A stretch of 64,000 nucleotides of DNA, taken from a virus. Position 1 is the first letter of the stretch, and every line of letters starts with the position of its first letter. The stretch is from positions 208,577-272,576 of IMG/VR virus record IMGVR_UViG_3300023174_000042, one strand, 5' to 3'. Under the pieces are notes generated by a model, which saw only the letters and a list, made by a program, of their open reading frames with translations, was not told where the DNA came from and searched no databases. A program made the translations under genes and the position numbers. Below are positions 1,979 through 55,895 of this stretch, piece after piece.

Positions 1979-2728
1979 TTAAATAACTTCTCTTGTGTCA
2001 ATATGTGCCTCATACATTAATCTTCTTGTTGATAAAGATCTGTAATAATAATAGTCTTCCAAAATAGACTCAAACAAACCGCTCACAAATCCTGATGCCG
2101 CATCCCAAGCATTTGAAAGTCCTTTCCCAACTGCCTGTGCCCCGCTTTGAATAGCGCTTCCTACCGCTTGAGCTCCTTTTTTAATTCCTTGTCCTACAGC
2201 TTGAACACCACCTTTAACAAAGTTGTATGCTTTATTCAACATGTTTCCTGCAAATTGTTTTACGTAAGACCAAAGTTCAGCAATTTTTGAGGCGGCGATA
2301 ACTGCGGCCCCCCAAGCGGCTTGTCCTAATTTCCATATGGCATCAAACATAGATTTAAAAAATTGTAATATGTTTGTAGATGCTTTACTGATAAAACTAG
2401 AAATTTGATTTGCGGTATATTTAATGGTTTGAGCGGCACCAATTACTATACCTTTAACTTGTTTTGCAAGTGCGGTTAAAAAACTCAAAATAACATTTCC
2501 AATTGCCTGTGCCACTTTAAAAGTAGCCTGACCAAGTTTAATTCCAACAATTGCAGGAAGAAAAATGATTGTCAATGAAATTTGACCAATTTTAATTACC
2601 GTTTGTTTGACAGCTTTACCAGCCTGAAAGCCAGCTTTGAATGCCGCGCTTTGGACATTTTGTTCTGAAATAACTTGTTTGATAACTTTTATCAAATCAT
2701 TTTCAGTTAATTTTATTACCTTTTTCAT
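1979..2728 (-). CDS. Tagged virion protein, membrane-active type
   Basis: A 249-residue protein with an N-terminal tag (K-K-V-I-K-L-T-E-N-D-L, ending V-I-S-E-Q near residue 23), the pattern of a capsid-targeting sequence cut at (L/I)-x-E. The rest is a chain of Ala/Gly/Ile-rich amphipathic and hydrophobic helices with near-repeats such as K-K-G-A-Q-A-V-G and Q-S-G-A-Q-A-V-G around residues 180-205. This composition suggests insertion into membranes, perhaps during DNA ejection, which is inference. The coding strand has TATTTATAAA just upstream and a terminator just downstream, so it is a one-gene unit. No enzymatic motif is seen. Confidence 0.7.
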   Translation of the reverse strand: MKKVIKLTENDLIKVIKQVISEQNVQSAAFKAGFQAGKAVKQTVIKIGQISLTIIFLPAIVGIKLGQATFKVAQAIGNVILSFLTALAKQVKGIVIGAAQTIKYTANQISSFISKASTNILQFFKSMFDAIWKLGQAAWGAAVIAASKIAELWSYVKQFAGNMLNKAYNFVKGGVQAVGQGIKKGAQAVGSAIQSGAQAVGKGLSNAWDAASGFVSGLFESILEDYYYYRSLSTRRLMYEAHIDTREVI

Positions 2729-2784
2729 AACTTTTTTTATTTATAAATACATCGTAAGTTGAAAAAATTTTGCAAAAGAAAAAA

Positions 2785-3240
2785 TCATCGACAATGGTAA
2801 TCTGCAGCTCTTGTTGCGATTTGATTATCAGGTTTTATATTTGCCTTATAACCCAATGACGTAACCAATCCAACGGCAGGAGATACGAGTTTTGAACTAA
2901 AATGTTTTTCTTGTGAATTATAGTCCAAATCGATCTCAATTTTTACACTTATTTTACTTGACAACCAATTTGCGACCTCAACAGAATGTTCACATTCAGT
3001 CCAAAGACGTGTCCATTTATCTTTTATTTTTCTTACCTTTTGTTTATGATAAATGTAATGAACACCCCTGTTTCCAAATCTATATGCAATTGCTGTTACA
3101 TATACAGTATTTCTTCTGTGATTTTGTGAATCAGTTCCTATATGGATTTCTACATATGGACATTCTTTTAAAATATCAATTGTATGATTTACTATATCAA
3201 AAACAGCGTCTCCTTCTACTTTTTTAAATACCCTGTTCAT
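2785..3240 (-). CDS. RNase H-like DUF458 (YkuK) family protein
   Basis: A 151-residue protein matching the RNase H-like DUF458 family in my recognition. It has a first acidic strand H-I-G-T-D-S-Q (residues 33-39), then T-A-I-A-Y-R-F-G-N-R-G and a central acidic I-D-L-D-Y-N, the pattern of two-metal RNase H folds. The nucleic-acid target of the family is not known. It lacks the N-terminal tag of its neighbours, so it is probably a cytoplasmic early or middle protein. The nearest upstream sequence shows no clear promoter box. Confidence 0.65.
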   Translation of the reverse strand: MNRVFKKVEGDAVFDIVNHTIDILKECPYVEIHIGTDSQNHRRNTVYVTAIAYRFGNRGVHYIYHKQKVRKIKDKWTRLWTECEHSVEVANWLSSKISVKIEIDLDYNSQEKHFSSKLVSPAVGLVTSLGYKANIKPDNQIATRAADYHCR

Positions 3241-3341
3241 AAATTGATTTGGGTGAGAAAATTCAAAATTTTATTATAATTTCTGTTGTATGAAATATTT
3301 GACTATCGATCACTCCTTTTATAAATAGTATTAACAAAATA

Positions 3342-3950: not shown

Positions 3951-3967
3951 ATTACAAATAAAAAAAA

Positions 3968-4465: not shown

Positions 4466-4469
4466 ACTA

Positions 4470-4477
4470 CAAAGATA
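4470..4477 (-). promoter_or_regulatory. Bacteroidota-type -7 box TATCTTTG
   Basis: TAnnTTTG match 4 bases upstream of the ATG at 4465, and it decides that start. Confidence 0.6.
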
Positions 4478-4874: not shown

Positions 4875-4889
4875 ATATTTTACATTTAG

Positions 4890-5829: not shown

Positions 5830-6963
5830 TTAAAACCTGAATTTTTTTAGTTCTTCATTTAAAAAAATATTAATCTTTTTCTCAATTGAACTTTCTTTGA
5901 TATTTCCATATTTTGCTTTACCTACGACTCTTCGTAAATTAGCAATTCCATAAGGACCACCATTAAGTTTGATTCTATCAAATTCATCTTCTAAACCAAA
6001 AATACCACCAATTTTTGGGGATTCACATCTTAAAGCGATAAATTTATTTTTAAACAAATCAACACCACAGTCTCTTGCTGTGTCTGAAGTTATACAATTA
6101 TAAAGTTTTTTGATCGTTGTTCTACAGGTTTTTTTATCAGGATATAATATTTCATTCATAGGATAAATTACATCATTATCTCTTCCAACACCAGCTTGAG
6201 AGGTTAAAGCTGGCCAATCATTTTTAATGTCTTTGAAATAAAACGAATATTTATTTTCATCCGACTCCGGATTTTCAGGTTCAGTAGTTGTAAAGTTTTG
6301 TTTTGTTAACATGGATTCAATCTGATCCATTTTACCTTGTGTTGTTTGTTTTAAACCAACTTTTCTCCACAAATATCCAGGTCCAGTATAATTAGGTAAA
6401 ATAGGTTGTCCAGTACTTGTGTTTTTCAAATCTTTATATAATACTTCTTCGTATTGACTTGGATTTTTTGGATCAAACCTGACATAAACTCCGCCAGAAT
6501 TATCAACAAATTCTTGTAATGTTGCCTCATCTTTTGGACCTAATGATGCAATTCCTAAATTCTCAAGTGCCTTTAATTGTTCACATTGACTTCCTAACCC
6601 ATTAGGAACCCTACTTGCAGGCTTATCATATGTTATTCTATAGGATAGAAGTGCTGTTTGAGGTGCTTTATCATCTTTAACACCAAATACCATATAATAA
6701 TCACCTTGACCTCCTGTTGGTTGACTTGATATATAAAAGGCACTTTCTAAACCTTTACTTTGTAATTCTGGAAAATAACTCCAATATTTTTTTTCTAATT
6801 CTTTGATTGGTCTGTTTTTTAAAAAATCTAAAAAAGAACAATTGTCTCGAACACCTTCTAACATTCTTTTTTGATCGTTATAGTCTAGACCTTTAACGGT
6901 TTTGTTTTTTTGAAGTTCATCGTCTTCTAATAAAACTTTTCGAATAATTTTTGAAATTTCCAT
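5830..6963 (-). CDS. Tagged virion protein, unknown function
   Basis: A 377-residue protein opening with a short amphipathic tag (E-I-S-K-I-I-R-K-V-L-L-E-D), ending in V-L-L-E as expected for an (L/I)-x-E cut. The rest is soluble and mixed alpha/beta with no motif I recognise. The C-terminus is again basic and helical (S-I-E-K-K-I-N-I-F-L-N-E-E-L-K-K-F). It is the last of a run of three large tagged genes on the minus strand (8093-9289, 6967-8085, 5830-6963) with 3-7 base gaps, so they probably form one late operon. Confidence 0.65.
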   Translation of the reverse strand: MEISKIIRKVLLEDDELQKNKTVKGLDYNDQKRMLEGVRDNCSFLDFLKNRPIKELEKKYWSYFPELQSKGLESAFYISSQPTGGQGDYYMVFGVKDDKAPQTALLSYRITYDKPASRVPNGLGSQCEQLKALENLGIASLGPKDEATLQEFVDNSGGVYVRFDPKNPSQYEEVLYKDLKNTSTGQPILPNYTGPGYLWRKVGLKQTTQGKMDQIESMLTKQNFTTTEPENPESDENKYSFYFKDIKNDWPALTSQAGVGRDNDVIYPMNEILYPDKKTCRTTIKKLYNCITSDTARDCGVDLFKNKFIALRCESPKIGGIFGLEDEFDRIKLNGGPYGIANLRRVVGKAKYGNIKESSIEKKINIFLNEELKKFRF

Positions 6964-6966: not shown

Positions 6967-8085
6967 TTATAATTCTGCTAATGTTGACCCCAAACCTGAC
7001 CTACAAATATATTTTATGTCGTCTTTGGTAAAAGATATTTGATTTATTTTTTTTGATAATGCGGTTTCCGTTTCTTTATTGAATAACCCTGTTACTTTAA
7101 CACCCAAACAAGATTGTGCTTTAGATATTAAATCTTCAGACCCTTTTGGTGTTTTACACCCAATATAATATTCTTTTGTGCAATCTCTATAAACATTACC
7201 GTCTTCATCGGTTATTTGTGTTGGATCATCATCACTTGATCCTTTTTTTACACAATCATTTTTTTCAACACTAAACTCATAACCTTCTTGTTCACATTCT
7301 ATTTTGGTATTTCCTTTTTTCTTGAAAAAAAGATACCAAACCCCAACACCAATACCTGTTAAAAGTGCTAATTTGATAAGTGCTTTGGCTTTAATAACTC
7401 TTTTAACAGGATCCCAAATGCCTCGTCTTTCTAACCAATCTAAAACTTTATTTGGTTTTTTATCTATTTCTTTTTTCAAGTCAATAATCTCTTCTTTAGT
7501 TGGTGGAACTTCTTCTATGGGTTTTGGTTCAGGTTTTGGTTCAGGTTTTGGTAAATCACGTTCACCTTTCCAAGTATCCAAGTCTTTTAGTCGTCTTTCA
7601 TTTGCATCAAAAATGGCCTTTAATTGTTCATCGGGAAGCTTTGGATTTTTTTGTTTTAATTTTAAAAACCTATCACCACTAGTCCCAAAAGAATAATTAT
7701 CTTTAAATGTTTTTGTATCAACAATGTCTTCAGCAATTGCCGAAATTAATTTTTTATTTTTTGTATTGGTGTATACACTCCACTTTACTTTCATTCGTTC
7801 GGCGTTGGATAATTTACCATCTTTAAGTGCTCCTATAATTTCATCAATACTTTTGAGACTTTTTCCGTCTTTAGTCATTACACCACCAAATTTTAGAAGT
7901 TGTTTCTCAACTGATTGTAGTTCGGTTCTAAATTCTCTTGCTAATTCGGCATCTCCACGTAAAGCATCAATCAATCCTCTTACTTGTTCGGATATAATTG
8001 TAAAATTTTCTTTGGATGTTTTTGATAAATCATATCCACTTAAAAATTTAATCCTGTTAATTTCCTCTATTATAATATTTTTCAT
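6967..8085 (-). CDS. Tagged virion protein with TM and PG-binding-like C-terminus
   Basis: A 372-residue protein. Residues 1-35 are tag-like (N-E-I-N-R-I-K-F-L-S-G near 8, with I-I-S-E-Q at about 30). A Pro/Lys/Glu repeat (K-P-E-P-K-P-E-P-K-P) at about 180 acts as a stiff linker. One membrane helix follows (A-L-I-K-L-A-L-L-T-G-I-G-V-G-V) at about 235-255. The C-terminal 60 residues resemble a peptidoglycan-binding fold (A-Q-S-C-L-G-V, T-G-L-F-N-K-E-T-E-T-A-L). The layout suggests a protein that crosses the host membrane and touches the cell wall during entry; that is inference. Confidence 0.65.
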   Translation of the reverse strand: MKNIIIEEINRIKFLSGYDLSKTSKENFTIISEQVRGLIDALRGDAELAREFRTELQSVEKQLLKFGGVMTKDGKSLKSIDEIIGALKDGKLSNAERMKVKWSVYTNTKNKKLISAIAEDIVDTKTFKDNYSFGTSGDRFLKLKQKNPKLPDEQLKAIFDANERRLKDLDTWKGERDLPKPEPKPEPKPIEEVPPTKEEIIDLKKEIDKKPNKVLDWLERRGIWDPVKRVIKAKALIKLALLTGIGVGVWYLFFKKKGNTKIECEQEGYEFSVEKNDCVKKGSSDDDPTQITDEDGNVYRDCTKEYYIGCKTPKGSEDLISKAQSCLGVKVTGLFNKETETALSKKINQISFTKDDIKYICRSGLGSTLAEL

Positions 8086-8092: not shown

Positions 8093-9289
8093 TTATTTTA
8101 TATACGCACTGAAATCATCTTCTCCTTTATTTTTTTCTAATGCTGCGATTAATTCTTTTTCATCAGATTTATTTGATGCAACTTGTTTTTCTTTTTGATA
8201 TTCCCCATATGTTCCTATAGCAGACAACAAACCTAAATTAATTAAAACGGGTTTAAGTGCTGGACTTTTGAACAAACTTTTAATACCATTTATAATTGTT
8301 TTAATAAAACTTGAAATACCAGAAAGTGCCTTTGAAAATAATTTTGAAAAGAAGGTTCCCTCCTTGAAGTATTTAGCAGCACTTGTAAACTTTGATGGTA
8401 AAGATTTTAGAGCATCAATTCCTGTTTTTAACATTTCCATAAATCCTCTGTTTTTTGCTAAAGATTTCCCAACTTCCCCACTTGCTTTAGCGGCACTAAT
8501 CGCACCTTTTGCGGATATTTTGGCCGCTTTTGCGGCACTTCCAGCAAAAACTAAACCAATTACATCTATAATAAAAAATACAATTCTCATCCACATTGGT
8601 TCGGTTGGATCTTCATAGTCTCCTGTAACTAGTTCATATATATCTAAACCTACGACTATTGCCCAAACAACTAACTGAGGCACTTTACCTATACCAGTCG
8701 CAACTAAAATAGTATCTATAATAATACCAACAGGACTATAAACTGCTTGTCTAATTTTTCTAGCCAACCATTTAGCACCTTTTTTTGCCAACATTAAAAT
8801 TTCGTTCCAATCCCCTTTAGATATGGCCAATCCTAATTTTTTTATACCATCCCAAGAATCAACAACAAAATCAGAAACGCCTTTTACTGTTGATTTTGCG
8901 GTATCAGAAACCCAACTTGTAAAGTTATCCCACAAATTTTCTTGTAGATAACTTTTTACTAATGGTTTTATTGAAGATAGATCAACATCATTTTCGACCA
9001 ATAAAAGGTTGTCAAAAACATTTCTTGCCTCTTCTTTTATTGATTTTTTTAAACTTGAAACTCTAAAGGTGTGTTCTAAAAAAAGAATTAAATTGTCAGG
9101 TCTTTCCCAAATATTTCCTAAACTTTTTCCTTCTTTAAGATCAATAAGATCATCTAAAAAAATTACATATCTTTCATCAGGAGACAACCAATCCGTAAAA
9201 ACCAAATTTTCCAACATAATATCTTTAGTATTTACATACTTAGATAAAATTCGTTGTTTTTCAGATTCTTGAATTATTATTTTTTTCAT
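8093..9289 (-). CDS. Tagged virion protein, hydrophobic and membrane-active
   Basis: A 398-residue protein. The N-terminus (K-K-I-I-I-Q-E-S-E-K-Q-R-I-L-S-K-Y) is a tag variant with a possible cut at I-M-L-E near residue 27. Several hydrophobic helices occupy about residues 190-255, followed by Ala/Lys amphipathic stretches (A-A-K-A-A-K-I-S-A-K-G) and Phe-Ile-Lys helices to the end. It resembles the 1979-2728 protein in composition and could be a pore-forming ejection protein. It is the first gene of a three-gene late cluster. ATATTTAT lies 8 bases upstream of the ATG. Confidence 0.65.
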   Translation of the reverse strand: MKKIIIQESEKQRILSKYVNTKDIMLENLVFTDWLSPDERYVIFLDDLIDLKEGKSLGNIWERPDNLILFLEHTFRVSSLKKSIKEEARNVFDNLLLVENDVDLSSIKPLVKSYLQENLWDNFTSWVSDTAKSTVKGVSDFVVDSWDGIKKLGLAISKGDWNEILMLAKKGAKWLARKIRQAVYSPVGIIIDTILVATGIGKVPQLVVWAIVVGLDIYELVTGDYEDPTEPMWMRIVFFIIDVIGLVFAGSAAKAAKISAKGAISAAKASGEVGKSLAKNRGFMEMLKTGIDALKSLPSKFTSAAKYFKEGTFFSKLFSKALSGISSFIKTIINGIKSLFKSPALKPVLINLGLLSAIGTYGEYQKEKQVASNKSDEKELIAALEKNKGEDDFSAYIK

Positions 9290-11124: not shown

Positions 11125-11745
11125 ATGAAAATAATTTTAACTGAGGATCAATATATTTCATTACTTAAAGAAGAAAAAGAAAATGAAATTGAACAAACTT
11201 TTACAAACTCAAAAAAATTTACAAAAAGATTATTAAGGGATGTTAAAAATCAATATGGGATTGATTTTAATTTTGCTTTAACTTGGGGTTCTGTAATCGG
11301 TGGTTTTGTTGGTCCAATATCAAAATACTTAGAAGGAAAATATACAAATCTTTCAAAAACTGATATTACATTAATTTGTTTTGGAATAGTTCTAACTTTT
11401 TTTTCTGAAAACAAAGAAAAATTACACAAAGTATTAGAATTAATAAAGGAAAACAAATTAATTACTTTTTTTGATCATGCTTTAATGAAAGCTTACGATT
11501 TAAAAGATGCGTTTTTTAATTTTTTGGAGTCTTTAAATATGACATTTTCAAAAGTTTCAAATATGGTCGCTTATACTTTTTTGGTCCCTCTGATTCCCTT
11601 ATTAAAAAATTTGGCAGATATGGATTTATCTTCAGATCAAATTCATTTATTGTCGATGGGCGTGTCCCACTATACAGGAACAATAATTTCTTCAAAAATA
11701 ATTACCGAATTAATCAAAAAAATAATTAAAAGATTTAGATCTTAG
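11125..11745 (+). CDS. Tagged membrane protein
   Basis: A 206-residue plus-strand protein with an ITEDQ-type tag (M-K-I-I-L-T-E-D-Q-Y-I-S-L-L-K-E-E), cut expected after L-L-K-E. Hydrophobic segments lie around residues 50-65 (W-G-S-V-I-G-G-F-V-G-P-I), 80-95 (L-I-C-F-G-I-V-L-T-F-F) and 145-160. The G-S-V-I-G-G-F-V-G-P motif is familiar from phage membrane proteins of unknown role; holin-like activity is possible. ATATTTAT lies 7 bases upstream of the ATG. Confidence 0.65.
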   Translation: MKIILTEDQYISLLKEEKENEIEQTFTNSKKFTKRLLRDVKNQYGIDFNFALTWGSVIGGFVGPISKYLEGKYTNLSKTDITLICFGIVLTFFSENKEKLHKVLELIKENKLITFFDHALMKAYDLKDAFFNFLESLNMTFSKVSNMVAYTFLVPLIPLLKNLADMDLSSDQIHLLSMGVSHYTGTIISSKIITELIKKIIKRFRS

Positions 11746-12340
11746 AATTGTAATCTAAAATCATTTTAATAATATTTTGTTCTTCTTCGTTTGACAGGTG
11801 GTGAATGTCTTTGTGAGTTCTAAACCAATTTCTTACCAACTCTTCAAATGGTCTCTTGGTTATTTTTTTCATTCTTCTAAATCCATAAACTTGAGCATCA
11901 ATTTCTTCAGGACTAGAATAATATTCAAAAGGTGTTCTATCATCATTATTATTCAAATCAAACATTTCGGTATCTCTTTGATGTAAATGTCTTAATTCGT
12001 GTGAAACTAATTCATTTAATTCACCAATTAAATCATAAAGCAATTGATTTTTGTTTTTAGGGTTATATACGATTTTAATAGCGATAATATCATCATTTTT
12101 GTAAAATTCGGCATTTACCATAAATCCATCTATGTCATAATCTTGTTCAATAATTAATTCAATTGAAATGGATATGTCTGAAAAGTTGTATTCAATTTCA
12201 TCTTCTTTGATTTCTTCAGGAAGATAATATTCACCTTCAGATTCTTTTTTGAAAACACTTATAATGTCTCTAACAATTTCTCTAATTAATGAATCGTTTT
12301 TTGAAGTTTCTAATATTAAACTTTTTTTAATTTCAATCAT
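11735..12340 (-). CDS. Tagged HExxH zinc metalloprotease-like protein
   Basis: A 201-residue protein. The short tag I-E-I-K-K-S-L-I-L-E-T ends in L-I-L-E at residue 10. The catalytic-type motif H-E-L-R-H lies near residue 120 (V-S-H-E-L-R-H-L-H-Q), and a likely third ligand lies in S-S-P-E-E-I-D-A-Q-V about 25 residues later. This is the layout of gluzincin-like proteases. With its tag it would be carried in the head and could act on host or virion proteins after entry. ATATTTAT lies 4 bases before the ATG. It overlaps the plus-strand gene at 11125 by 11 bases at their ends. Confidence 0.65.
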   Translation of the reverse strand: MIEIKKSLILETSKNDSLIREIVRDIISVFKKESEGEYYLPEEIKEDEIEYNFSDISISIELIIEQDYDIDGFMVNAEFYKNDDIIAIKIVYNPKNKNQLLYDLIGELNELVSHELRHLHQRDTEMFDLNNNDDRTPFEYYSSPEEIDAQVYGFRRMKKITKRPFEELVRNWFRTHKDIHHLSNEEEQNIIKMILDYNSKI

Positions 12341-13369: not shown

Positions 13370-13957
13370 TTACCACGCTTTGCAGCTCCAATATCTTGCT
13401 TTCCATCTTGGTCCAGGATTATCACAATTCATTCTTGCTCTAAAAGATTTTCTTCTTGCCGGATTATTTTTTTTGATAACCATTCGTTTTCCGTGTGCAG
13501 ATTTACCACCAAAACCAAAATTTACTTTAACAACATTTCCTTTGTCGTTTTTTACATATACTTTGAATTTTTTTATGTCTCCTTGCATTATCTTTCCAAG
13601 TTTTACTTCTCGACCTTTATATTTTGCTTCAGATAAATAAATTGGATCCTCCATAGGGATTTCTAAATAAACAACTTGACCATTTTCTAAAATAACTTTT
13701 TTACCTAAGTCAGACTCAACAATAAATCTGTCTTCATCATTTAAATCAATAAAATCAAAATTGTATAATCTTCTTACTTCGTTAATTAAGTTTATAAAGG
13801 ATTTTGAATAATCTTTAAGCGGTGTTTCGCATAAAGGTATTTTTTTATCCAAGTGATATTTTAATTGATCTGAAACTTTAACATTTTCTTTAAGTTTCAT
13901 AGGGTGATAAAAGATTTTTTCTAAAGATCTCCTAACAATATTTTCAACTATTTTCAT
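13370..13957 (-). CDS. Virion-type protein with basic Cys motif at C-terminus
   Basis: A 195-residue protein. The N-terminus (K-I-V-E-N-I-V-R-R-S-L-E-K-I) is a weak tag. The last 45 residues hold a motif shared by many T4-like phage proteins: A-R-R-K-S-F-R-A-R-M-N-C-D-N-P-G-P, then A-R-Y-W-S-C-K-A-W. Two Cys and many Arg/Lys suggest a metal or nucleic-acid-binding knot; its function is not established. It converges with the GMP reductase gene with a 2-base gap. Confidence 0.65.
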   Translation of the reverse strand: MKIVENIVRRSLEKIFYHPMKLKENVKVSDQLKYHLDKKIPLCETPLKDYSKSFINLINEVRRLYNFDFIDLNDEDRFIVESDLGKKVILENGQVVYLEIPMEDPIYLSEAKYKGREVKLGKIMQGDIKKFKVYVKNDKGNVVKVNFGFGGKSAHGKRMVIKKNNPARRKSFRARMNCDNPGPRWKARYWSCKAW

Positions 13958-14011: not shown

Positions 14012-14542
14012 ATGAAAATAAAACAAATAACAGAAAGAGATATTAATAAAATTGTTAGATCTGTTCTTAAAGAAGATGATATGTCTTTTAAATCAAAAAA
14101 GAAAGATAAAAAACCAAGTTGTCTACCTGAGAATGTGATTCCTCTTGACGAAATTGTCGGAAGATCTGATGAATACTCAAGATATACTCCAGGAATTACT
14201 AAAAGAATATCAGGAGTAAATTCTATGGTAGACACATTAGGTATATTAAACAACTTACGATTGTTTAAAGATGTTAAAGATGGGGGATCTCATTTGGCTT
14301 ACGAAATGATGAATCATTTAAATAGATTCAGAAATAAAAATTATTACGACGAAACAACCGGAAATTGTCACAAAGCAATGGATAAGATAATTGAATTGTA
14401 TAAAGAAAATGAACACGGGACAGAATTAGTAAAAGATATTGAGAGAGTTTTGAACCTTCAAACAAGAGAAGACGAATATACTCCGTCACCAAGAGCAAAA
14501 GAATATTTAAAGCAATCTATAAACTTAGTAAAAGGAATGTAA
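14012..14542 (+). CDS. Tagged virion protein, unknown function
   Basis: A 176-residue plus-strand protein with a tag of the L-T-E-x-D type (Q-I-T-E-R-D-I-N-K-I-V-R-S-V-L-K-E-D), cut expected after V-L-K-E at about residue 22. The rest is helical and basic with no known motif; a conserved-looking C-H pair lies in T-G-N-C-H-K-A-M. It is followed after one base by the holin-like gene at 14544, so the two form a pair. ATATTTAT lies in the divergent spacer but about 40 bases upstream. Confidence 0.65.
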   Translation: MKIKQITERDINKIVRSVLKEDDMSFKSKKKDKKPSCLPENVIPLDEIVGRSDEYSRYTPGITKRISGVNSMVDTLGILNNLRLFKDVKDGGSHLAYEMMNHLNRFRNKNYYDETTGNCHKAMDKIIELYKENEHGTELVKDIERVLNLQTREDEYTPSPRAKEYLKQSINLVKGM

Positions 14543-39564: not shown

Positions 39565-41061
39565 CTAACTGATTTGTCTAATAGCACTTTCTACTTTATC
39601 TTGATTTTTTAACTTGGTATTTTTTCTATCTTTGATTGCCAATTCAATTAATTGTTGATCCGATAGTCCGTTTTTGATTCCATTTTCCAAACTTTCAGCA
39701 AATTTTTTGAAAAACCCCGGTCCATTCCAACAAGCATATGACATATGAAGAGTTAAACCTGGTATTGATTGAATTTTTTCTTTAGTTTTTGGATCTTTTA
39801 CAAAATTTGACATATTTTTGTCAAAAGATCTTTTCATTATTTTAACTGCCAAATTTTTCAAAGATTGTTCTTTGTCTCCACCTCGATATAACCATTTCCA
39901 TTCTTTACAAAAGTCATCCATGTTTGACCAAGTGGTATTTGGTCCAACACCATTTGATTTAGCCCCAGCACCATATTTTTCTCCATCTATAATTTGAAAA
40001 AATTCTTTACCTTCAGGTGATGACTCAATATTTCCGTTATATCTGTCCAATCCAAACATTGTTTCTGTAGATTTTCCCATATTACCACCTGGATGCTTAC
40101 AAAACGGATTCCAATATCCGCCTTCAAACTTATCAATCACAATTTTTGTAACATTTTCAAAATTTGACAAATCAACAGCAGATAAATTGTTTTCATCAGA
40201 TTGACTTTCCTTACATATCTTTTGAACATCAGATACGTTAAATTCTTTTTTTCCTGTTTTTTCTTCCATAGCACTTTGAGTTTTAGGTCCAAAATATCCA
40301 TCTTGATTTATACCCAAGCAACCTTGCACTTGATATATAATTCCATTAGTATTTGGAGATTTATATTTAGTTCCGACATCTTTACAACCTTTTTTAAAAT
40401 TTGGTCCATCACAATCGGAGTATTTTTTTAATTTATCTGATATATCACTAACACTAGAACCACCACCTATAAGTGATATATCGTCACTTGTTTCGATTTC
40501 AGTTGGTTTGTCTGTCCTATTATATTCACCTTTACCTTCATGTGGAGGATAGTTTTTTGGTAAAGAATATTTGTAAAAAAATTGTCTAATATAAACACCA
40601 TCAGGGTTTTTGAAGTCTAATACTAATTTGATGTTTTCTGCGTCTTTTTTTTCTAATTTTCTAGTCAAATCATTTATTTGTCTTTCTGCTCTTATGTCTG
40701 CTCTGTTTCCTGCGGATCCTCGTGTAGAGATTCCCATATAAGCAATTCCATCTTTACTTTCATCAATAGTTGCTTCCCAATTTACAGTATAATTTGTAGA
40801 ATCAACTTTTATATTCAAATTTGTAATGTCGGGATTAATTCCAGCATCGTAAACTTCTTTTAATTTTTCATTTATTTTTGTTGACATTTTTCCTCCAAAA
40901 CCATCTGATTTTCTACTTTCAAATGAATGTAATGCGTCCGCATCTCCTTTTGGTGCTGTATAACCACCTTTAACAACAATAGGTAATGAAATTGTTTGTT
41001 CTTTTAACAGTCCCATTATTGATTTAATTCTAAAAATTTCTTCGTTAATATAAGGTTTCAT
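39565..41061 (-). CDS. Tagged virion muramidase-like protein with PG-binding domain
   Basis: A 498-residue protein. The tag is N-E-E-I-F-R-I-K-S-I-M-G-L-L-K-E-Q (cut after L-L-K-E). A beta-rich domain follows to about 200. A peptidoglycan-binding segment lies near 240-285 (Q-V-Q-G-C-L-G-I, D-G-Y-F-G-P-K-T-Q-S-A-M). A C-terminal domain starts K-F-E-G-G-Y-W-N-P, then G-K-S-T-E-T-M-F-G-L-D-R, which resembles GH108-type muramidases (catalytic Glu in E-G-G-Y). It would cut peptidoglycan, probably from inside the virion during entry. ATATTTAT lies 7 bases before the start. Confidence 0.65.
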   Translation of the reverse strand: MKPYINEEIFRIKSIMGLLKEQTISLPIVVKGGYTAPKGDADALHSFESRKSDGFGGKMSTKINEKLKEVYDAGINPDITNLNIKVDSTNYTVNWEATIDESKDGIAYMGISTRGSAGNRADIRAERQINDLTRKLEKKDAENIKLVLDFKNPDGVYIRQFFYKYSLPKNYPPHEGKGEYNRTDKPTEIETSDDISLIGGGSSVSDISDKLKKYSDCDGPNFKKGCKDVGTKYKSPNTNGIIYQVQGCLGINQDGYFGPKTQSAMEEKTGKKEFNVSDVQKICKESQSDENNLSAVDLSNFENVTKIVIDKFEGGYWNPFCKHPGGNMGKSTETMFGLDRYNGNIESSPEGKEFFQIIDGEKYGAGAKSNGVGPNTTWSNMDDFCKEWKWLYRGGDKEQSLKNLAVKIMKRSFDKNMSNFVKDPKTKEKIQSIPGLTLHMSYACWNGPGFFKKFAESLENGIKNGLSDQQLIELAIKDRKNTKLKNQDKVESAIRQIS

Positions 41062-42612: not shown

Positions 42613-44202
42613 TTACCTATTTTCAGGTCTAAATCTATATGGATTGGCTTTGATTGCCGCTTTTGAAAAATAAGTCCCTTGTCCTTGTCGTCTGGCATTT
42701 TTTAATGATCTACCATATTCATTCATTTCGACTTCAAAATCAGGTTCGTAACGTTCATCATTTGATTGTTTAATTTTATCTCTTAAAGTTACAAAAAACT
42801 CCCTAGCCAATCTTTTCATGAATTTAACGTATTCAGCGTCTTCATCATCTTTTTTCTTATAGTATTTACTAACAGGAGGTCTTTTTGACCTATCTAAATA
42901 ACTTAAACCTGAAATATTAGTAATACATTTGTGTCCCCCACTGTTGGCTAAAATTAAATCCCAAGCAGATATTGTTATTTTGTCTAACACTTCACGTTGT
43001 TTATCTGTTAATGAATTAAATGGTTTTGACATAATAGAATCCAACATTTTGATATAAGAATCCGATCCTTCTTGTTTATCAAAAGAATTTGGATAAAGAG
43101 CCGTAAAGTCTTTTAATGTAAAACCAACAGATCCTTCACCAAAATCTTTGCTGTTTTCAGATATCCATTTAATTGTTGATAAAGGTATTTTTTTATTTTT
43201 TAATTCAGTTTCAAATTTCTTTAGAACTTCATCTTTAACTTCACCCAAATTAACACCTTTCAATGCTCTTTCTTTTTTAAATGGATTACAAGATGCTTGA
43301 ATCATTCCCATTGGCCAAACAAGAAGTAAAAAGTCTGCGTCAGGATTGTTTTTAAATGGTGTATAACGATCATAAGATCCTACGTCAAAAAGGTTACCTC
43401 CGCCATATTGAGTAATAATTCCATCAATTACCTTCACATTAGGAGAAGTTTTTTGTCTTTCAACATAAGATTCTTTATTTTTTTCTAATTGTTGTATATC
43501 CAAATAACCATTATTTTTCATCCAATCTTTAATATTTAAAAGAATATTCAAAAGTGAAGGTTTTGACTTCATTACAAGTTGTGTTAAAAAACCTTTCTTG
43601 TTTTTAAATGCCAATAGCAACTTGTTTGCCACAAGTCCCATCATTTTTTTATTTCCTTTAACATCTCTTTCTCGATCAATTTTGAATAAATAGTTCATGA
43701 CCTCACTTGGTGTTATATCATATTTAGCAAAATCTGCTGAGTCCACCATATTAATCAATTCAACATCTTCTTGAGTGAAAATATCTTTTGGTGATAATAC
43801 TTGAGAAATTGTTTCAACGTTAGATCTTGATGGTCTAAAACTTGTTGCGGTTCCACTTTCAACCCCTGCTTGTGTATCATGGTGATCGGTATGAATTACA
43901 TACATAGGTTTACCATGGGCAAAGTCAACCAAAACAGGCATAATTTCACCCTCACCTTCAGGTTTTTTTACAGCAAATTCTTTATCTCCATATTGTATTG
44001 TTTCAGCATCAACAACTTTAATTCCATTTTTTTCCAAATAGTCTTTCATAGCCAAGGCAGTTGTTACCCCATCTAAATCCATGTGAAAATAGATTTTAGC
44101 CATTTTATATCTTTTTGCTAGATCTTTGATACCTCTAATACCACTTTCATTCAATAATTTTGTGGTTTCTTCTTTTATTATTCGTCTTATTAAGTTTTTC
44201 AT
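42613..44202 (-). CDS. Tagged DHH-family phosphoesterase
   Basis: A 529-residue protein. The tag is K-N-L-I-R-R-I-I-K-E-E, followed at once by a second site L-L-N-E-S. The DHH motifs are clear: H-M-D-L-D-G-V-T-T-A-L (near 37-47), V-D-F-A-H-G and H-T-D-H-H-D-T (near 105-112). Members of this family hydrolyse oligonucleotides or cyclic dinucleotides and act as RecJ- or NrnA-like enzymes. With a capsid tag it could be injected and remove signalling nucleotides or DNA ends. ATATTTAT lies 5 bases before the ATG. Confidence 0.75.
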   Translation of the reverse strand: MKNLIRRIIKEETTKLLNESGIRGIKDLAKRYKMAKIYFHMDLDGVTTALAMKDYLEKNGIKVVDAETIQYGDKEFAVKKPEGEGEIMPVLVDFAHGKPMYVIHTDHHDTQAGVESGTATSFRPSRSNVETISQVLSPKDIFTQEDVELINMVDSADFAKYDITPSEVMNYLFKIDRERDVKGNKKMMGLVANKLLLAFKNKKGFLTQLVMKSKPSLLNILLNIKDWMKNNGYLDIQQLEKNKESYVERQKTSPNVKVIDGIITQYGGGNLFDVGSYDRYTPFKNNPDADFLLLVWPMGMIQASCNPFKKERALKGVNLGEVKDEVLKKFETELKNKKIPLSTIKWISENSKDFGEGSVGFTLKDFTALYPNSFDKQEGSDSYIKMLDSIMSKPFNSLTDKQREVLDKITISAWDLILANSGGHKCITNISGLSYLDRSKRPPVSKYYKKKDDEDAEYVKFMKRLAREFFVTLRDKIKQSNDERYEPDFEVEMNEYGRSLKNARRQGQGTYFSKAAIKANPYRFRPENR

Positions 44203-47536: not shown

Positions 47537-48185
47537 ATTTATTATTATAATAAGTTGCAATCCAATCAGCCTTCAGTAAAGGTTCTTGATTTAATATTGT
47601 GTCAATACCGACATAATATTTTTCAGTTTCGTAATAAGTTTCTCTTCGATATAAATAATTGTCTATATATTCTTCAACAGCATCTCCAACATCGGTTTTT
47701 TCCCCATTTAAAGTTGCTGATATTGGTTCTACTTTGTTGTCGATATAGTAAGTTTCACTATCCTCAAAATATAATTTCATACCAACAGATTCTATATTAA
47801 TCACATACTTATTATAACCAATAAATGGAGTTCCTGTTGTAAATTCAATTTTTCTTACAGAGTCAAAAACTTTTTGTATTTTGTTTCTTGTTTTGTTGCT
47901 AAGATAAAATTTAGGTAAATCATTCCACATAACTTCAACAAAAAACTCATAACTAACAAATTGTCCATATTCAATAACAATATCATCTAATAGTTCTTCA
48001 ATGATTGAATAATAATAAGAAACTTTATTTGGGTTTTTAATTACGAATTGAATTGGATAAAAACTTTTATTATTTTTTTTTGTTTCTTCTCCAACTCTAA
48101 CAGGGATACATTTTAACCCGTAAAGATCTATTTCATCTCCAGCAAAGTTTTTAAATAATTTTAATATTTTTTCTTGATTCATCAC
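47526..48185 (-). CDS. Hypothetical protein
   Basis: A 219-residue protein rich in Tyr, Asp and Asn (Y-Y-Y-S-I-I-E-E-L-L-D-D-I). The N-terminus (N-Q-E-K-I-L-K-L-F-K-N-F) lacks a clear tag. The mixed alpha/beta pattern resembles other small domains of tagged proteins here. It overlaps the end of uvrC by 11 bases and the lysozyme gene by 4, which couples it to that gene. Function unknown. Confidence 0.6.
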   Translation of the reverse strand: MMNQEKILKLFKNFAGDEIDLYGLKCIPVRVGEETKKNNKSFYPIQFVIKNPNKVSYYYSIIEELLDDIVIEYGQFVSYEFFVEVMWNDLPKFYLSNKTRNKIQKVFDSVRKIEFTTGTPFIGYNKYVINIESVGMKLYFEDSETYYIDNKVEPISATLNGEKTDVGDAVEEYIDNYLYRRETYYETEKYYVGIDTILNQEPLLKADWIATYYNNKFIL

Positions 48186-49099
48186 GCAAACATTTTGTAT
48201 TCTCTTTCTCGTCTTGGTTTTAATCCAGGATAGTTATCAAATAAATTTTCACTAGTAACCAATATTTCTTTTTTTGCACCCTCAATGTCCCCTTTTTTTA
48301 GAAGTTGGATAAAATTTGATGTTCTTATTCCAGGACCCATATTAAATGTTATTGACACCATTGCGTCATACATACCTTGAGTTATCTGTGGTTTTATTCC
48401 TTTTTCTTCCCAATCATCAAGTATTTTATTAATTATATTTTCAGCTTTTTCAATATCATCTTTTAACAAAATCTCTGCCTGATCTTTTGTGATTTTTGTT
48501 TTACCTGAAATTATTTTGTTATAGTTTGGAAGAAAATCATATCCTTCTTTTTCTTTTTTGAATACAGCATGTCCATATCCGATTGTTTTTGCCTTATCCC
48601 CCAAATTATAAGCAACTAAAACTGGCTCACCTTTGTGTTTTAATGAACCTTCTTCCCATTTTAAATGATTATATAAGTCTTTTGAAGATTTTCTAATTTT
48701 TAGATCTTGTATTGGTTTTGTTAAAACTTCTTTTTCAAATTTTATTGCTTTTTCTACTGGAGGGTCAAGATAATTTTTTATTTGACCAACACTTAAAAGT
48801 CCGACCAGTGAAAATATGACATACTGAAATATTTTTCTTTTAACTTTGGATGGTAGATTTTTTATTTTATTAGATAGGGTATTTAAAAATTCTTTCGCAT
48901 CTTCTTTTGTTTTAACCCAATTTTTTGATTTGTCAATATCTTTTTTAACATCAGTAAAATCCCACTCCATATCAGGTTCAGTTTTACCATCATCTTCAGA
49001 AATTAAAGACAATTTGAAAACAAGATCATCAAGAACTTGTTCATAAATTAATTTAGATTGTATTGAGATATATTGATCTTCGGTTATTAAAACTTTCAT
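48182..49099 (-). CDS. Tagged GH24 (T4-type) lysozyme
   Basis: A 305-residue protein. The tag is of the ITEDQ type (V-L-I-T-E-D-Q-Y-I-S-I-Q-S-K-L-I-Y-E-Q), cut possible after L-I-Y-E. A membrane helix lies near 88-108 (F-Q-Y-V-I-F-S-L-V-G-L-L). The C-terminal domain is GH24 muramidase: H-L-K-W-E-E-G-S (catalytic Glu), Y-N-L-G-D-K-A-K-T-I-G-Y-G-H-A (Asp and Thr), then M-V-S-I-T-F-N-M-G-P-G. It cleaves the MurNAc-GlcNAc bond. The tag and membrane helix suggest action during entry instead of, or besides, lysis. ATATTTAT lies exactly 4 bases upstream. Confidence 0.8.
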   Translation of the reverse strand: MKVLITEDQYISIQSKLIYEQVLDDLVFKLSLISEDDGKTEPDMEWDFTDVKKDIDKSKNWVKTKEDAKEFLNTLSNKIKNLPSKVKRKIFQYVIFSLVGLLSVGQIKNYLDPPVEKAIKFEKEVLTKPIQDLKIRKSSKDLYNHLKWEEGSLKHKGEPVLVAYNLGDKAKTIGYGHAVFKKEKEGYDFLPNYNKIISGKTKITKDQAEILLKDDIEKAENIINKILDDWEEKGIKPQITQGMYDAMVSITFNMGPGIRTSNFIQLLKKGDIEGAKKEILVTSENLFDNYPGLKPRREREYKMFA

Positions 49100-53437: not shown

Positions 53438-53520
53438 ATTTTTATTATAATAAAATTCTTTTTTTAATATATACAAATAAATAATTTTTACATTCAAAAT
53501 AATTAAAGTAAAATTCATTT

Positions 53521-54102
53521 ATGTTAAATATTATTGCAGTAACTTATAACCATAAAGAATCCTTGAAGTGTTTTATCAATTCAATAAAAAATCAAACTAA
53601 TAATAATTGGACACTTTTTATTATTCACGACGGATTAAACCACACCCTTAAAGAAGAATTAACTAATGAAAATTATTTAAACGATAAAGTAATTTTTATT
53701 GAGCATCCAGTAAGAACTCAAAATTATGGTCATATACTTCGTAAGTGGTCTTTGGAAAATTTGAATCTAAATGGTAGAGTATTATTAACTAATGCAGATA
53801 ATTATTATACGCCAAATTTAGTTGATGAAGTTCTTAGCTATAGTGAAGATTTTATTTATTTCAATGTGATTCATTCTCATAAAAATAAAACCAATCATAA
53901 TAAATCAAACTATGGTTTTATGAACACAAAATTAGAACAAAGTAAAATAGATATGGGTTGTGTTGTGGTAAAATCTGAAATAGCAAAAAAAGTAGGTTTT
54001 AATTCGACTTCTTATGAAGCCGATTGGCATTATTTCGATGAAATATTAAAAACTAACCCGAGTATTTTAAAAATTGATAAAGTTTTATTTGTCCATAATT
54101 AA
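53521..54102 (+). CDS. Glycosyltransferase family 2-like (inverted)
   Basis: A 193-residue protein with L-N-I-I-A-V-T-Y-N-H-K-E-S, I-I-H-D-G and L-L-T-N-A-D-N-Y-Y-T-P (a D-N-Y variant of the metal motif), then D-M-G-C-V-V-V-K. It is the only glycosyltransferase on the plus strand, divergent from the cluster. Its end overlaps the 54099 gene by 4 bases. Its metal site is less canonical than those of its neighbours. Confidence 0.7.
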   Translation: MLNIIAVTYNHKESLKCFINSIKNQTNNNWTLFIIHDGLNHTLKEELTNENYLNDKVIFIEHPVRTQNYGHILRKWSLENLNLNGRVLLTNADNYYTPNLVDEVLSYSEDFIYFNVIHSHKNKTNHNKSNYGFMNTKLEQSKIDMGCVVVKSEIAKKVGFNSTSYEADWHYFDEILKTNPSILKIDKVLFVHN

Positions 54103-54416
54103 TTAGACTTATTTTTTTTCTTTCTCCCCTGACAATGCGCTCTCTGACTAAATCCTTTTGGGTTATTACAGTTGATTGATCTTTTATATTTTTCAGACCA
54201 CTTTTCTTCAATCGGTTCTTTAGATAATTTATTCTTCCAAAACTTGAATAGGTTTTCTTTATCATATTTACCCTTTTTTTGATCCCACCCACAATCATGG
54301 CAAAGAAAAGAATGTTTGTCATCATTCTCTTTTTTCCAAGAGTGTTCACACTTTTCACATTCAATCTTTTCGTTGAATATTCTATCTGCCTGTTTTTCTG
54401 AAATTAGTATTTTCAT
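54099..54416 (-). CDS. Tagged zinc-finger protein with C-terminal basic motif
   Basis: A 105-residue protein. The start M-K-I-L-I-S-E-K-Q-A-D-R-I-F-N-E-K is tag-like (cut after I-F-N-E). Two Cys pairs (E-K-C-E-H ... C-H-D-C-G-W-D) about 20 residues apart form a likely zinc finger. The end C-N-N-P-K-G-F-S-Q-R-A-H-C-Q-G-R-K-K is a motif I recognise from many T4-like phage proteins. The combination suggests nucleic-acid binding in the virion. It overlaps the 54413 gene by 4 bases. Confidence 0.7.
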   Translation of the reverse strand: MKILISEKQADRIFNEKIECEKCEHSWKKENDDKHSFLCHDCGWDQKKGKYDKENLFKFWKNKLSKEPIEEKWSEKYKRSINCNNPKGFSQRAHCQGRKKKNKSN

Positions 54417-54709
54417 CTTCTTTTTTTAACTTTATTAAAACCATTTCTAATTTTTTCATTAAATTGACCACTAGATAACAATAAAAAATCAAATTTATCA
54501 GGTATTATCTTTGAATTTCTATATTCAAACTCCCTTCTAACTCTACTAATAATCCAATTTTCATAAACCCCAAAATTATCAGGTTTATTACCTGGTCCTC
54601 CTTTTTTAATATCATTATTAAGTTCAATAATAACCTCATCAATGATTTGACCTATTTCGGTTAATCTTCGTAATAATTTTATTTGATCTTCTGTTAATAC
54701 TATTTTCAT
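54413..54709 (-). CDS. Tagged virion protein, small
   Basis: A 98-residue protein from the ATG at 54709, where an ITEDQ tag begins (K-I-V-L-T-E-D-Q-I-K-L-L-R-R-L-T-E-I-G), cut possible after L-T-E. The body is helical with G-G-P-G-N-K-P-D-N-F and a basic end (N-K-V-K-K-R-R). Its ATG overlaps the previous stop (TAATG). Function unknown. Confidence 0.6.
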   Translation of the reverse strand: MKIVLTEDQIKLLRRLTEIGQIIDEVIIELNNDIKKGGPGNKPDNFGVYENWIISRVRREFEYRNSKIIPDKFDFLLLSSGQFNEKIRNGFNKVKKRR

Positions 54710-55032
54710 TAGTAACAATTTTCAACTAAGTCATTATAAATACCAACTAAATAGTTATAGTATTTTTTGTCCATATAGTTTTCTACCTCATCACGAACTT
54801 CTACCATTGCTGGTGATGGTCCATCATAATCCTCATCTTCATCGTCTTCATCACAATATCCTTCATCACAGTAATAAAAATGAATTCCCTGCCCAATGCA
54901 AAAATCGGCGTAATCATCTTCATCTTCAAAATCACAAGGATCTTGTATTTCTGTTTGATATTCTATTATATCACCAATCTTTTCTAACTCAACACCTCGC
55001 CTAAGTAATCTAATAGGTATATCTAAATTCAT
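54709..55032 (-). CDS. Acidic protein with weak tag
   Basis: A 107-residue protein. The N-terminus N-L-D-I-P-I-R-L-L-R-R-G-V-E-L-E-K-I resembles a tag but lacks a clear (L/I)-x-E end. The middle is a long Asp/Glu run with Cys and Tyr (D-E-D-D-Y-A-D-F-C-I-G, E-D-D-E-D-E-D-Y-D). It overlaps both neighbours by 1-4 bases. Function unknown. Confidence 0.55.
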   Translation of the reverse strand: MNLDIPIRLLRRGVELEKIGDIIEYQTEIQDPCDFEDEDDYADFCIGQGIHFYYCDEGYCDEDDEDEDYDGPSPAMVEVRDEVENYMDKKYYNYLVGIYNDLVENCY

Positions 55033-55895
55033 AACTTAATTTTTTCTTTGGTTTTATTGTCATAAATAGTAAATGGATTAGCAATTACCACCCAATCAAC
55101 ATGAGGATATTCATCTTCAGGTCTCCAAGCATATTTGTTAGTTTTAACTTGTATAGTTTTTAACCCAAAGTCAGGATGAGACATAATCAAATCAGTTCCA
55201 AATACCATATCAATTAAATCACCATTTCCACCACTATATTCCTCCGTAAACCCTTTTTTCTCCAATTCCTCTCTTACTTTATTTTCAGCCTCTTCACCAC
55301 TCTTAGTTGTTCCAAGAGTATTTTTTGTGTAATCGTTGAAAACTCTGGGATCGTCAAAATATTTATTGATTAATCTTTTAATAAAAGGTTTTAATTTGCT
55401 TAGTTCTTCTTTTGGATTTTCTATGACTTTTTGAATTATTGGTTGAGCTCTATTTCCTCCCATAAAAAGTAAATCGGTTACCAATTCACCCAAATCATAA
55501 TAGTTTGTGTTTAGTTTATTAATTGGTTGCCATTCTCCGTTGAAATAAACCAATTTACCTCCCATAACTTTATTTTCAATAAAATTGTTTTTTTCTTCTT
55601 CAGTAATTTTTCCTGCCGATTGTAACAAATTAGCACCTTCAATAAACTTTTTTTTCAATTCATCAGGTATATCTGTTTTTAAGTCTTTGATCTTATCTTG
55701 AATTATATTATTTAGATCCAAACCATAATACTTGTGAAGCCAAGATTTTAAAGTTATAATACTTTGACATAAATTATGTTTTTGTGACTTTTCGGGATAT
55801 CTTTGACAAGCACGATATTCTGATTCTGTAATTAATGGTGGAAGACCCATCAACTCACCAATTCTTGTTATTTCTTCGTTAATTAATTTATTCAT
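55029..55895 (-). CDS. Tagged PD-(D/E)XK-like nuclease
   Basis: A 288-residue protein with a tag of the N-E-E-I-T-R-I-G-E-L-M-G-L type, later L-I-T-E-S at about 24. A helical middle follows. From about residue 200: G-E-E-A-E-N-K-V-R-E-E-L, S-G-G-N-G-D-L-I-D-M-V-F-G-T-D-L-I, then L-K-T-I-Q-V-K-T-N. This is the E ... D ... Q-x-K layout of PD-(D/E)XK enzymes such as restriction nucleases. A nuclease carried in the capsid would meet host DNA early in infection. It is the last payload gene of the 55895-54099 coupled set. Confidence 0.6.
   Translation of the reverse strand: MNKLINEEITRIGELMGLPPLITESEYRACQRYPEKSQKHNLCQSIITLKSWLHKYYGLDLNNIIQDKIKDLKTDIPDELKKKFIEGANLLQSAGKITEEEKNNFIENKVMGGKLVYFNGEWQPINKLNTNYYDLGELVTDLLFMGGNRAQPIIQKVIENPKEELSKLKPFIKRLINKYFDDPRVFNDYTKNTLGTTKSGEEAENKVREELEKKGFTEEYSGGNGDLIDMVFGTDLIMSHPDFGLKTIQVKTNKYAWRPEDEYPHVDWVVIANPFTIYDNKTKEKIKL

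Follow-up and report, generated by a model that had tools for sequence, protein, structure and literature searches.

The stretch analysed here (the window, 64,000 nt, positions 208,577 to 272,576 of IMG/VR record IMGVR_UViG_3300023174_000042, whose length is 272,576 bp) belongs to a giant phage whose host group appears to be freshwater Bacteroidetes, and it raises the question of why so many genes with unrelated products open with one of a few short sequences. We argue that these tags are very probably T4-type capsid-targeting propeptides, predicted from sequence to be cleaved by a prohead protease and carried by a very large set of cargo proteins.

Tags were counted as 47 seed tags identified by similarity and 20 added by inspection and orthology, which places them on about 67 of the 317 genes in the record, a fifth of its genes (about 65 as a headline figure). 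The window holds 39 tagged gene calls (Table 1), 38 of them between 1979 and 55895, where a first-pass annotation had counted about 37, and every tag family that it named is present. About 28 further tagged genes lie outside the window, making this a genome-wide phenomenon; the sheath, portal, GMP reductase, thymidylate synthase, RNA ligase and other genes are untagged. Several tags require an ATG within a longer TTG ORF, and a start-codon artefact was rejected since upstream boxes and orthologs support the ATG. Comparison of N-terminal 26-mers yielded 83 within-genome pairs scoring at least 45, versus 0-1 in internal or shuffled controls, and with related bodies removed there were 82 N-terminal pairs in 50 genes versus one C-terminal pair. 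Across seven genomes, 4251 N-terminal links (a set that includes some secretion signals) were found among body-unrelated genes, versus 101 internal and 169 C-terminal links. As in a capsid-targeting sequence, a short N-terminal sequence is common to proteins with unrelated bodies; shuffles, internal windows, C-termini and spacing offsets rule out chance or composition as its origin.

Table 1. Tagged gene calls in the window. Each is a tagged protein unless marked probable; ↓ marks the predicted cleavage site.
Position	Strand	Family or type	N-terminus	TATTTAT box	Remarks
1979..2728	-	A	MKKVIKLTENDLIKVIKQVISE↓Q	yes	
5830..6963	-		MEISKIIRKVLLE↓D		
6967..8085	-		MKNIIIEEINRIKFL...FTIISE↓Q		
8093..9289	-		MKKIIIQESEKQRILSKYVNTKDIMLE↓N type	yes	sole strict [LI]xE in first 40 residues at 6-8; later one is M-L-E
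11125..11745	+		MKIILTEDQYISLLKE↓E	yes	orthologs LLE↓N, LTE↓Q, LLE↓S
11735..12340	-		MIEIKKSLILE↓T	yes	HELRH motif (by eye)
13370..13957	-	probable	MKIVENIVRRSLEKIF...MKLKE↓N	yes	
14012..14542	+		MKIKQITERDINKIVRSVLKE↓D	yes	47 unique orthologs, P1 Glu invariant
19493..20020	-		MGRKIRLTESEFHSLIKRIIIE↓T	yes	
20074..20925	-		MKSLKVDNYEKKRILLLHEFKKSGKSITE↓D	yes	weak OmpA-like body
20973..21464	-	E	MNNLLNEINTIRQMMGLLNE↓E	yes	
21487..21825	-		MNIQEQLSQIKYLLDYKRGQLINE↓M	yes	
23064..23924	-		MKILISENQLGLIRRIGE↓I	yes	
24659..25069	-	ITEDQY-type start	MKIIVTEDQYKKVVFKLLDN		only one without any [LI]xE in first 40 residues
25071..25394	-	ITEDQY-type	MKIIISESQLNLL	yes	
25576..25881	-	A	MKRTVRLNERDLTRIVRRVIKE↓S	yes	
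26060..26488	-	A	MKRIVRLTERDLTRIVKRVISE↓T	yes	
26556..26954	-	A	MKRIVRLTESDLARIVRRVINE↓E	yes	
27130..27471	-	A	MKRIIRLTESDLARIVRRVINE↓E	yes	
28031..28363	-		MKIIITEDQAESLRKIKVFE		
28360..28755	-	probable	MDHIIKRIINE↓T	yes	
28841..29260	-		MKIIITEDQYGQLTNLVKRVISE↓N	yes	body homologous to module 3 of the 1018-aa protein
29334..29765	-	A	MKRIIRLTESDLARIVKRVIKE↓E	yes	
31454..32329	-	D	MNLQEHIRKVLRE↓E		
32331..32768	-		MNLQEQISRMKSMMWMITE↓S		
32770..33366	-		MNLQEQIRRILKE↓E	yes	HEISH motif (by eye)
34031..34594	-		MNLNEELKRTRELMGLNE↓G	yes	
34623..37679	-		MRELIRHILKE↓N		1018 aa
37679..38323	-		MRNLIKLILE↓D		
38320..38757	-	C	MKELIRHILKE↓E		
38741..39079	-	C	MKELIRHILKE↓E		
39079..39513	-	C	MKKLIKNILKE↓D	yes	
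39565..41061	-		MKPYINEEIFRIKSIMGLLKE↓Q	yes	body has a different tag in a related phage
42613..44202	-		MKNLIRRIIKE↓ETTKLLNE↓SGIR	yes	DHH/RecJ-like
48182..49099	-		MKVLITEDQYISIQSKLIYE↓Q	yes	phage lysozyme (PF00959, E=1e-18)
54099..54416	-	ITEDQY-type	MKILISEKQADRIFNE↓K		
54413..54709	-		MKIVLTEDQIKLLRRLTE↓I	yes	
55029..55895	-	E	MNKLINEEITRIGELMGLPPLITE↓S		
58852..59361	-	probable	MNKFDLTEKLKEELKRRNLWE↓Q	yes	orthologs MLE↓Q, LSE↓Q, ISE↓Q

The expectation that nearly all tags end in (L/I)-x-E was borne out for the seed tags, 45 of 47 having [LI]xE within residues 6-33 (24.4 ± 3.2 in shuffles), but less so for the MK(I/V)I(I/V)TEDQY family, in which some members have [LI]xE at residues 5-7 only and some tags lack a clear second LxE. 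Several tags contain two [LI]xE sites. With a motif as short as LxE, some sites arise by chance. The excess of hydrophobic residues two before Glu reaches z=+10.2 in tags versus 0.5 in the corresponding bodies, and [LI]xE spacing specific to the N-terminus is found over all genes in each of the seven genomes (z 4.2-7.3). Hydrophobic residues occupy P7 in 51% and P4 in 59% of cases, versus 17-35% at P9, P6 and P5, a tendency and not a strict rule.

Orthologs allow the site to be followed through divergence. Among the 47 orthologs of 14012..14542, P1 is Glu in 47/47, P3 is Leu in 33, Ile in 13 and Val in one, P2 takes six or more different residues, and the P1 and P3 codons vary synonymously. 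Differing tags on orthologs of the DHH-like protein meet the body at [LI]xE↓(S/T)GIR or SGLR, with ISE, IIE, IKE, LNE, ITE and LLE as the triplets before (S/T)G(I/L)R, and the first invariant residue of 42613..44202 is Glu19. In pooled ortholog pairs, where the signal is weaker than in the single-family test, Glu is kept at 0.69 versus 0.48 for other Glu in tagged genes, and at 0.61 versus 0.53 in untagged genes. The L/I-x-E site at the tag end appears to be conserved by selection, with exceptions among ITEDQY tags. Tags and bodies are swapped as modules, which argues that the tag is a general-purpose address label.

A gp21-like prohead protease, on which the capsid-targeting interpretation of the first-pass annotation depends, is encoded in the record (S77, E=9.9e-24; head maturation protease phrog_207), and its His and Ser motifs, ELNHP and GISSRGVGS, align with those of T4 gp21. 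The head genes follow the T4 order 20-(small)-21-22-23, with profile matches for the MCP (phrog_138, E=3e-66) and portal (phrog_213), a scaffold-like gene, gp22-like and acidic, assigned by position and acidity only, and a bS21 gene (PF01165) within the module on the opposite strand. The MCP site FLINE↓A aligns with FLTE↓A of T4 gp23 and, from other phages, with IVSE↓A, LISE↓A and LLKE↓A; all of 67 MCP relatives have LINE↓A. A TATTTAT box precedes 28 of the 28 tagged leader genes with upstream space in the record, versus 57 of 127 others, and across the seven genomes 147 of 162 tagged genes versus 370 of 1016 others (shuffle expectation 6-9%). The box, common to tagged, portal, scaffold-like, protease and sheath genes, is late-promoter-like and may be linked to a phage sigma factor; TAnnTTTG, the promoter type of Bacteroidetes hosts, shows no enrichment upstream of tagged genes.

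Six related phages of 229-309 kb show the same tag pattern, as does a 484-kb phage whose tag family is its own. In LR756508 a different tag family comes with the same LxE excess. The S77 protease is found in 6/6 relatives above 200 kb and in 20 of the 27 related records taken together, a set in which many are fragmentary. The T4 positive control yields only the known IPII/IPIII tag pair, and the pattern was not found in phiKZ, P-SSM2, S-PM2 or a Microcystis phage. A search for cultured close relatives with tag A and one tagged body gave no match in 50,697 phage records. Among isolates, Flavobacterium phage immuto came nearest, with about ten N-termini of this kind.

We infer from these features a course of docking, cleavage, virion presence, ejection and cargo function. 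Synthesis of tagged proteins would begin late, from TATTTAT promoters that a phage sigma factor probably recognises, and the basic amphipathic tag helix would dock on the prohead scaffold core, a step proposed to bring about enclosure of the protein as the gp23-like shell assembles. The gp21-like S77 protease would cut after [LI]-x-E, releasing a mature protein that would remain beside the DNA and pass into the host on infection.

The sequence tests that were run agree with this T4-type interpretation and with a number of proteins far above that of T4, but two further claims of the first-pass annotation, enzymatic diversity and a role against host defences, found no such agreement. Among about 20 bodies searched, only the phage lysozyme passes the Pfam cut-off; the OmpA-like and DHH/RecJ-like assignments are weak, AlphaFold modelled the DHH-like protein with mediocre confidence (pLDDT 64), and tagged bodies are mostly without a match in Pfam, PHROGs, NCBIfam and PDB sequence searches. 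No evidence of an anti-defence purpose was found and no restriction inhibitor was identified; a role in genome entry suits the lysozyme- and peptidoglycan-type bodies no less well.

The 1018-aa tagged protein may be a polyprotein. It has seven internal LxE linkers (at residues 185, 295, 422, 564/570, 673, 782 and 877) and 12 [LI]xE[SND] sites versus 3.8 ± 1.9 in shuffles, and stand-alone tagged proteins match two of its modules, 3 and 4; a search of viral contigs for its relatives gave none. A general test of whether LxE marks the junctions of fused modules, confounded by repeat proteins and unconvincing, gave 18/43 for tagged cases versus 28% at random and 50/122 for untagged cases versus 24%, so that the polyprotein claim rests on one protein. 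A wider interpretation, which we advance tentatively as slightly less likely than not, is an open-ended protein-delivery system in these giant Bacteroidetes phages: a fifth of the genes would encode cargo with interchangeable tags of several families (perhaps for different core zones or times), some cargo would be polyprotein (1018 aa, about eight mini-modules) diced by the prohead protease at LxE in the capsid, and many accessory proteins would arrive with the DNA before phage gene expression.

Tags that target the prohead core and are removed could also belong to proteins that mostly serve assembly (scaffolding, head size, protease regulation) and not delivery. We regard this as rather unlikely: T4 does have core proteins, gp22, gp67 and gp68, whose cleavage occurs at this motif (PMC9026906), and the structural-region tagged proteins 98181, 115139, 154181 and 185529 are conserved in most relatives, but the majority of tagged genes look accessory: of 68 tested, only 33 have a reciprocal ortholog in any of the six relatives, and such turnover resembles cargo, not conserved scaffold. 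Some tagged proteins are, moreover, enzymes (lysozyme, DHH-like). Docking of the N-terminus elsewhere (tail or baseplate, phage replication compartment, host complex), with LxE incidental, is improbable. Docking peptides are commonly short amphipathic helices, and tail lysozymes exist, as does one tagged lysozyme; docking alone, however, predicts neither the constraint on P1 Glu and P3 Leu/Ile, which is among the strongest in the tag and leaves P2 free, nor a junction that survives a change of tag, and the MCP site bears the same motif.

Still less credible is a repeated DNA cassette of promoter and gene start, spread by recombination with no role at the protein level. Identity among family A genes is 59% in the 30 bp upstream, versus 29% in the 90 bp that directly follow the tag, so promoter and tag have spread together, but synonymous variation at P1 and P3, Leu/Ile interchange, a free P2, the convergence of different tag families on one amino-acid pattern and the LxE excess of LR756508 all stand against a purely DNA-level origin. 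That the tags are secretion or lipoprotein signals can practically be dismissed, for although a few genuine signal-peptide starts fall within the broad similarity set, the tags themselves form charged amphipathic helices that lack a hydrophobic core.

As capsid-targeting propeptides, the tags would make it possible to predict from sequence which proteins a large uncultured phage group injects, would assign to unknown genes a site and a time of action that can be tested, and would offer a rich source of natural packaging tags. That the 484-kb phage shows the same pattern with a different tag family suggests recurrence of large internal arsenals among huge T4-related phages. Shared 5′ tags, [LI]xE and an S77 protease together form a search rule. 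No report of such a tag set was found in the literature searched, which had preprints outside its scope and few subscription papers.

Several known systems resemble this one in part. In phage P1 a reporter is directed to the capsid by the first 30 residues of DarB (PMC9024508); the Dar set comprises six proteins, and the likeness considered here is the capsid-directing N-terminus. The bS21-encoding phages of freshwater Bacteroidetes (PMC9723584) share with this record a bS21 gene, and the passages of that account consulted here report late transcription of head genes and do not mention N-terminal tags. In phiKZ and SPN3US (PMC10052503, PMC5694885), also giant phages, head proteins are numerous and some bear N-terminal propeptides that a prohead protease cuts after Glu, as is predicted here; SPN3US has nine prohead protease substrates, mostly with 111-254-residue propeptides. 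In place of the mostly long propeptides of the phiKZ type and its protease beyond the range of S77 matches, the record has short tags, Leu/Ile at P3 and an S77 protease, and phiKZ showed no S77 match and, in the 200 kb tested, no shared short tags or LxE excess. The swapped ip loci of T-even phages, whose Ip1-3 inhibit GmrSD restriction enzymes, likewise place diverse bodies behind a conserved packaging leader (PMC12373910; PMC3012670), but here tagged genes are spread genome-wide in many operons and tag types swap on one body. The closest likeness is to the T4 capsid-targeting sequences of IPI, IPII, IPIII and Alt (PMC9026906, PMC3012670), in which residues 4 and 7 target and residues 8 and 10 process (PMC9026906): a short N-terminal propeptide on unrelated proteins, an L/I-x-E cut site, a gp21-family protease, hydrophobic P3, P4 and P7, and a gp23 site in the same place. 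T4 has three internal proteins and Alt with one main tag family, whereas this record has about 67 tagged genes and five or so families, tags that reach about 30 residues and often hold a pair of LxE sites, the late-type box TATTTAT and one possible polyprotein. Where T4 packs a handful of such proteins, this phage group, with most of them outside any recognised family, appears to pack dozens.

When genes of the 272,576-bp virus record were compared by their N-terminal 26 residues, 83 pairs scored at least 45, far above the zero or one pair seen in controls. With related-body pairs left out, 82 N-terminal pairs in 50 genes remained, against one C-terminal pair. Among the 317 genes called over the whole record, whose sequence outside the window (bases 208577-272576) was read in stretches, we count 67 tagged genes, comprising 47 seeds and 20 more from inspection and orthology that are less certain than the seeds. 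Thirty-nine lie in the window, in line with the first-pass annotation, which had put unrelated window proteins with common N-terminal tags at about 37. Tags fall into class A (MKR(I/V)(I/V)RLTESDLARIVRRVI.E), class B (MKII(I/V)TEDQY..., sharing its start with class A), class C (MKELIRHILKE), class D (MNLQEQIRRILKE), class E (MN.LINEEI.RI..MGLL.E) and a looser class (SE.EK.RIL.MH...L.E). Two tagged-gene clusters are separated by 1.7 kb (29766-31453) whose sole ORF (30397-30705) is short and unsupported.

Residues are numbered back from the predicted cut (↓), P1 being the Glu of [LI]xE. The (L/I)-x-E ending ascribed to the tags was recovered as an excess of L/I two residues before E in tag residues 6-32 (88 observed, 39 expected; z=10.2, inflated by kinship among tags), with L/I directly before E depleted and no offset-2 excess in the bodies of tagged proteins. 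Because of this kinship, three further tests were run, on all genes, an ortholog family and tag replacement. Unselected genes were enriched at offset 2 in each of seven genomes, the record and six relatives (z = 4.2-7.3). In the family of 47 unique orthologs, P1 is Glu in 47/47 (both Glu codons) and P3 is Leu (33), Ile (13) or Val (1), using at least seven different codons, while P2 varies (Ser, Lys, Leu, Asn, Thr, Met, others); the tags in addition conserve an earlier LxE, at residues 6-8 (Glu in 44/47). Orthologs of the DHH-like protein begin MKNLIRRIIKEETTKLLNE↓SGIR, MRKIISE↓SGIR, MKIKKNTQVIIE↓SGLR, MKIIITESQYRQIIKE↓SGIR, MSKLITE↓SGIR or MSNLSQKNILLE↓TGIR; in their alignment no position ahead of the invariant Glu19 is fully conserved. 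The same MFFSNL body (record gene 177477) carries a C/D-like tag in the record and relatives G001 and G003 and a family A tag in relative G004, and record gene 98181 keeps I-x-E↓Q in six genomes (P2 = L, F, S, M, L, T), the seventh having LSE↓Q.

A gp21-like prohead protease, which the first-pass annotation had proposed to seek elsewhere in the genome, is present: an S77 protease whose ELNHP and GISSRGVGS align with T4 gp21, encoded also in 6/6 relatives >200 kb. As in T4 (20-67-68-21-22-23), the head genes run portal, small genes, protease, acidic protein, major capsid protein. The capsid protein site, FLINE↓A at residue 60, is invariant among 67 such proteins and aligns with IVSE↓A, LISE↓A and LLKE↓A of three other phages and with FLTE↓A (Glu65), which we take to be the T4 gp23 cut position. 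A T4 propeptide of 65 residues agrees with that position, and T4 gp21 reportedly cleaves after L/I-X-E, removing propeptides of 7 to 65 residues (PMC9026906), a range that includes the predicted propeptide lengths here. With P1 as the anchor of the alignment, hydrophobic residues occupy P3, P4, P7 and P11 of the tags, and K/R occupy P5 and P6. In T4 IPIII, residues 4 and 7 (P7, P4) matter mainly for targeting and 8 and 10 (P3, P1) for processing (PMC9026906); the tags match this pattern, which does not itself prove docking.

In each of the seven genomes, head, tail and tagged genes have in common a TATTTAT box, mostly 10-30 nt ahead of gene starts. Among genes that have 25 nt or more of space upstream, it precedes 28/28 tagged and 57/127 other genes in this record, and 147/162 versus 370/1016 over the seven genomes (Fisher p 4e-41; shuffle expectation 6-9%). 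It is present ahead of the portal, scaffold-like, protease, terminase and sheath genes and absent from those that encode GMP reductase, UmuC/D-like proteins (read by eye) and thymidylate synthase in the window. Over the whole record, about 100 genes have this late-promoter-like box at a distance of 10-45 nt upstream. The phage's own sigma factor is a candidate reader, and a transcriptomic study of related phages describes head genes as late-expressed (PMC9723584).

Applied to T4, the same test recovered the known IPII/IPIII pair, plus homing-endonuclease-like genes; it found no such tags in phiKZ (200 kb), Microcystis phage Mel-JY01, P-SSM2 or S-PM2 (140 kb). A large set belonging to a tag family of its own (M+LSE+KLR+IVKEEI..VLxE, z=7.0) occurs in the 484-kb phage LR756508 (400 kb covered), so large sets arose or persist in no fewer than two lineages of huge T4-related phages. 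In Flavobacterium phage immuto, about ten N-termini are of this kind; being cultured, this phage offers a practical test model. At least four of its proteins carry another tag type, MENFDLKKFLVEN(R/K)LT.NS+L(I/L).E.

Tagged bodies include a phage lysozyme (PF00959), a weakly OmpA-like protein, two proteins with HExxH-like motifs (read by eye) and one whose predicted fold may, with low confidence, be DHH/RecJ-like; among the remaining bodies that were searched, none had a match above cut-off. Cargo with muralytic activity would suit passage through the cell wall, as with gp16, the internal transglycosylase of T7. Since Ip1-3 of T4 inhibit GmrSD enzymes (PMC12373910), an anti-defence role would be plausible. 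The 1018-aa protein has a single tag and [LI]xE linkers roughly every 100 residues (185, 295, 422, 564/570, 673, 782, 877), with 12 occurrences of [LI]xE[SND] where shuffles give 3.8+-1.9; stand-alone tagged proteins are homologous to module 3, and one of G004 to module 4. Since a general test for fusion at LxE was not convincing, the polyprotein reading is a lead.

We infer a Bacteroidetes host group from the 30% GC, the T4-type head genes among the record's hallmarks, the bS21 gene and the T9SS sorting domain. The placement of bS21 within the head module resembles that in freshwater Bacteroidetes phages (PMC9723584).

Features of the window and of the wider record (window coordinates unless marked)
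Feature	Coordinates	Strand	Support or remark
S77 (gp21) prohead protease	record 184046-184774		phrog_207
Phage sigma factor	record G000:C1:48930-49730, outside window	-	phrog_351, E=2.4e-54
bS21 ribosomal protein	record G000:C1:185344-185532, outside window	+	PF01165, E=1.9e-8; opposite strand, between protease and portal genes
Six tRNAs (Asp, Glu, Met, Ile, Phe, Ser)	272-1678 and 4889-4974	-	
GMP reductase	12399-13367	+	NF003966, above cut-off; unusual metabolic gene for a phage
Tagged gene, 47 unique orthologs	14012-14542		
815-aa protein	15893-18340	-	N-terminal signal, T9SS type B sorting domain (TIGR04131); a phage gene with a signal for a host secretion system
FKBP-type peptidyl-prolyl isomerase-like	18651-19076	+	no tag
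1018-aa tagged protein	34623-37679		candidate polyprotein

On the features that sequence can test, the tags belong to the T4 capsid-targeting class; that a tag suffices for packaging and is cleaved are predictions beyond that membership. From T4 capsid-targeting sequences they differ in scale, in the number of tag families and in their modular exchange.
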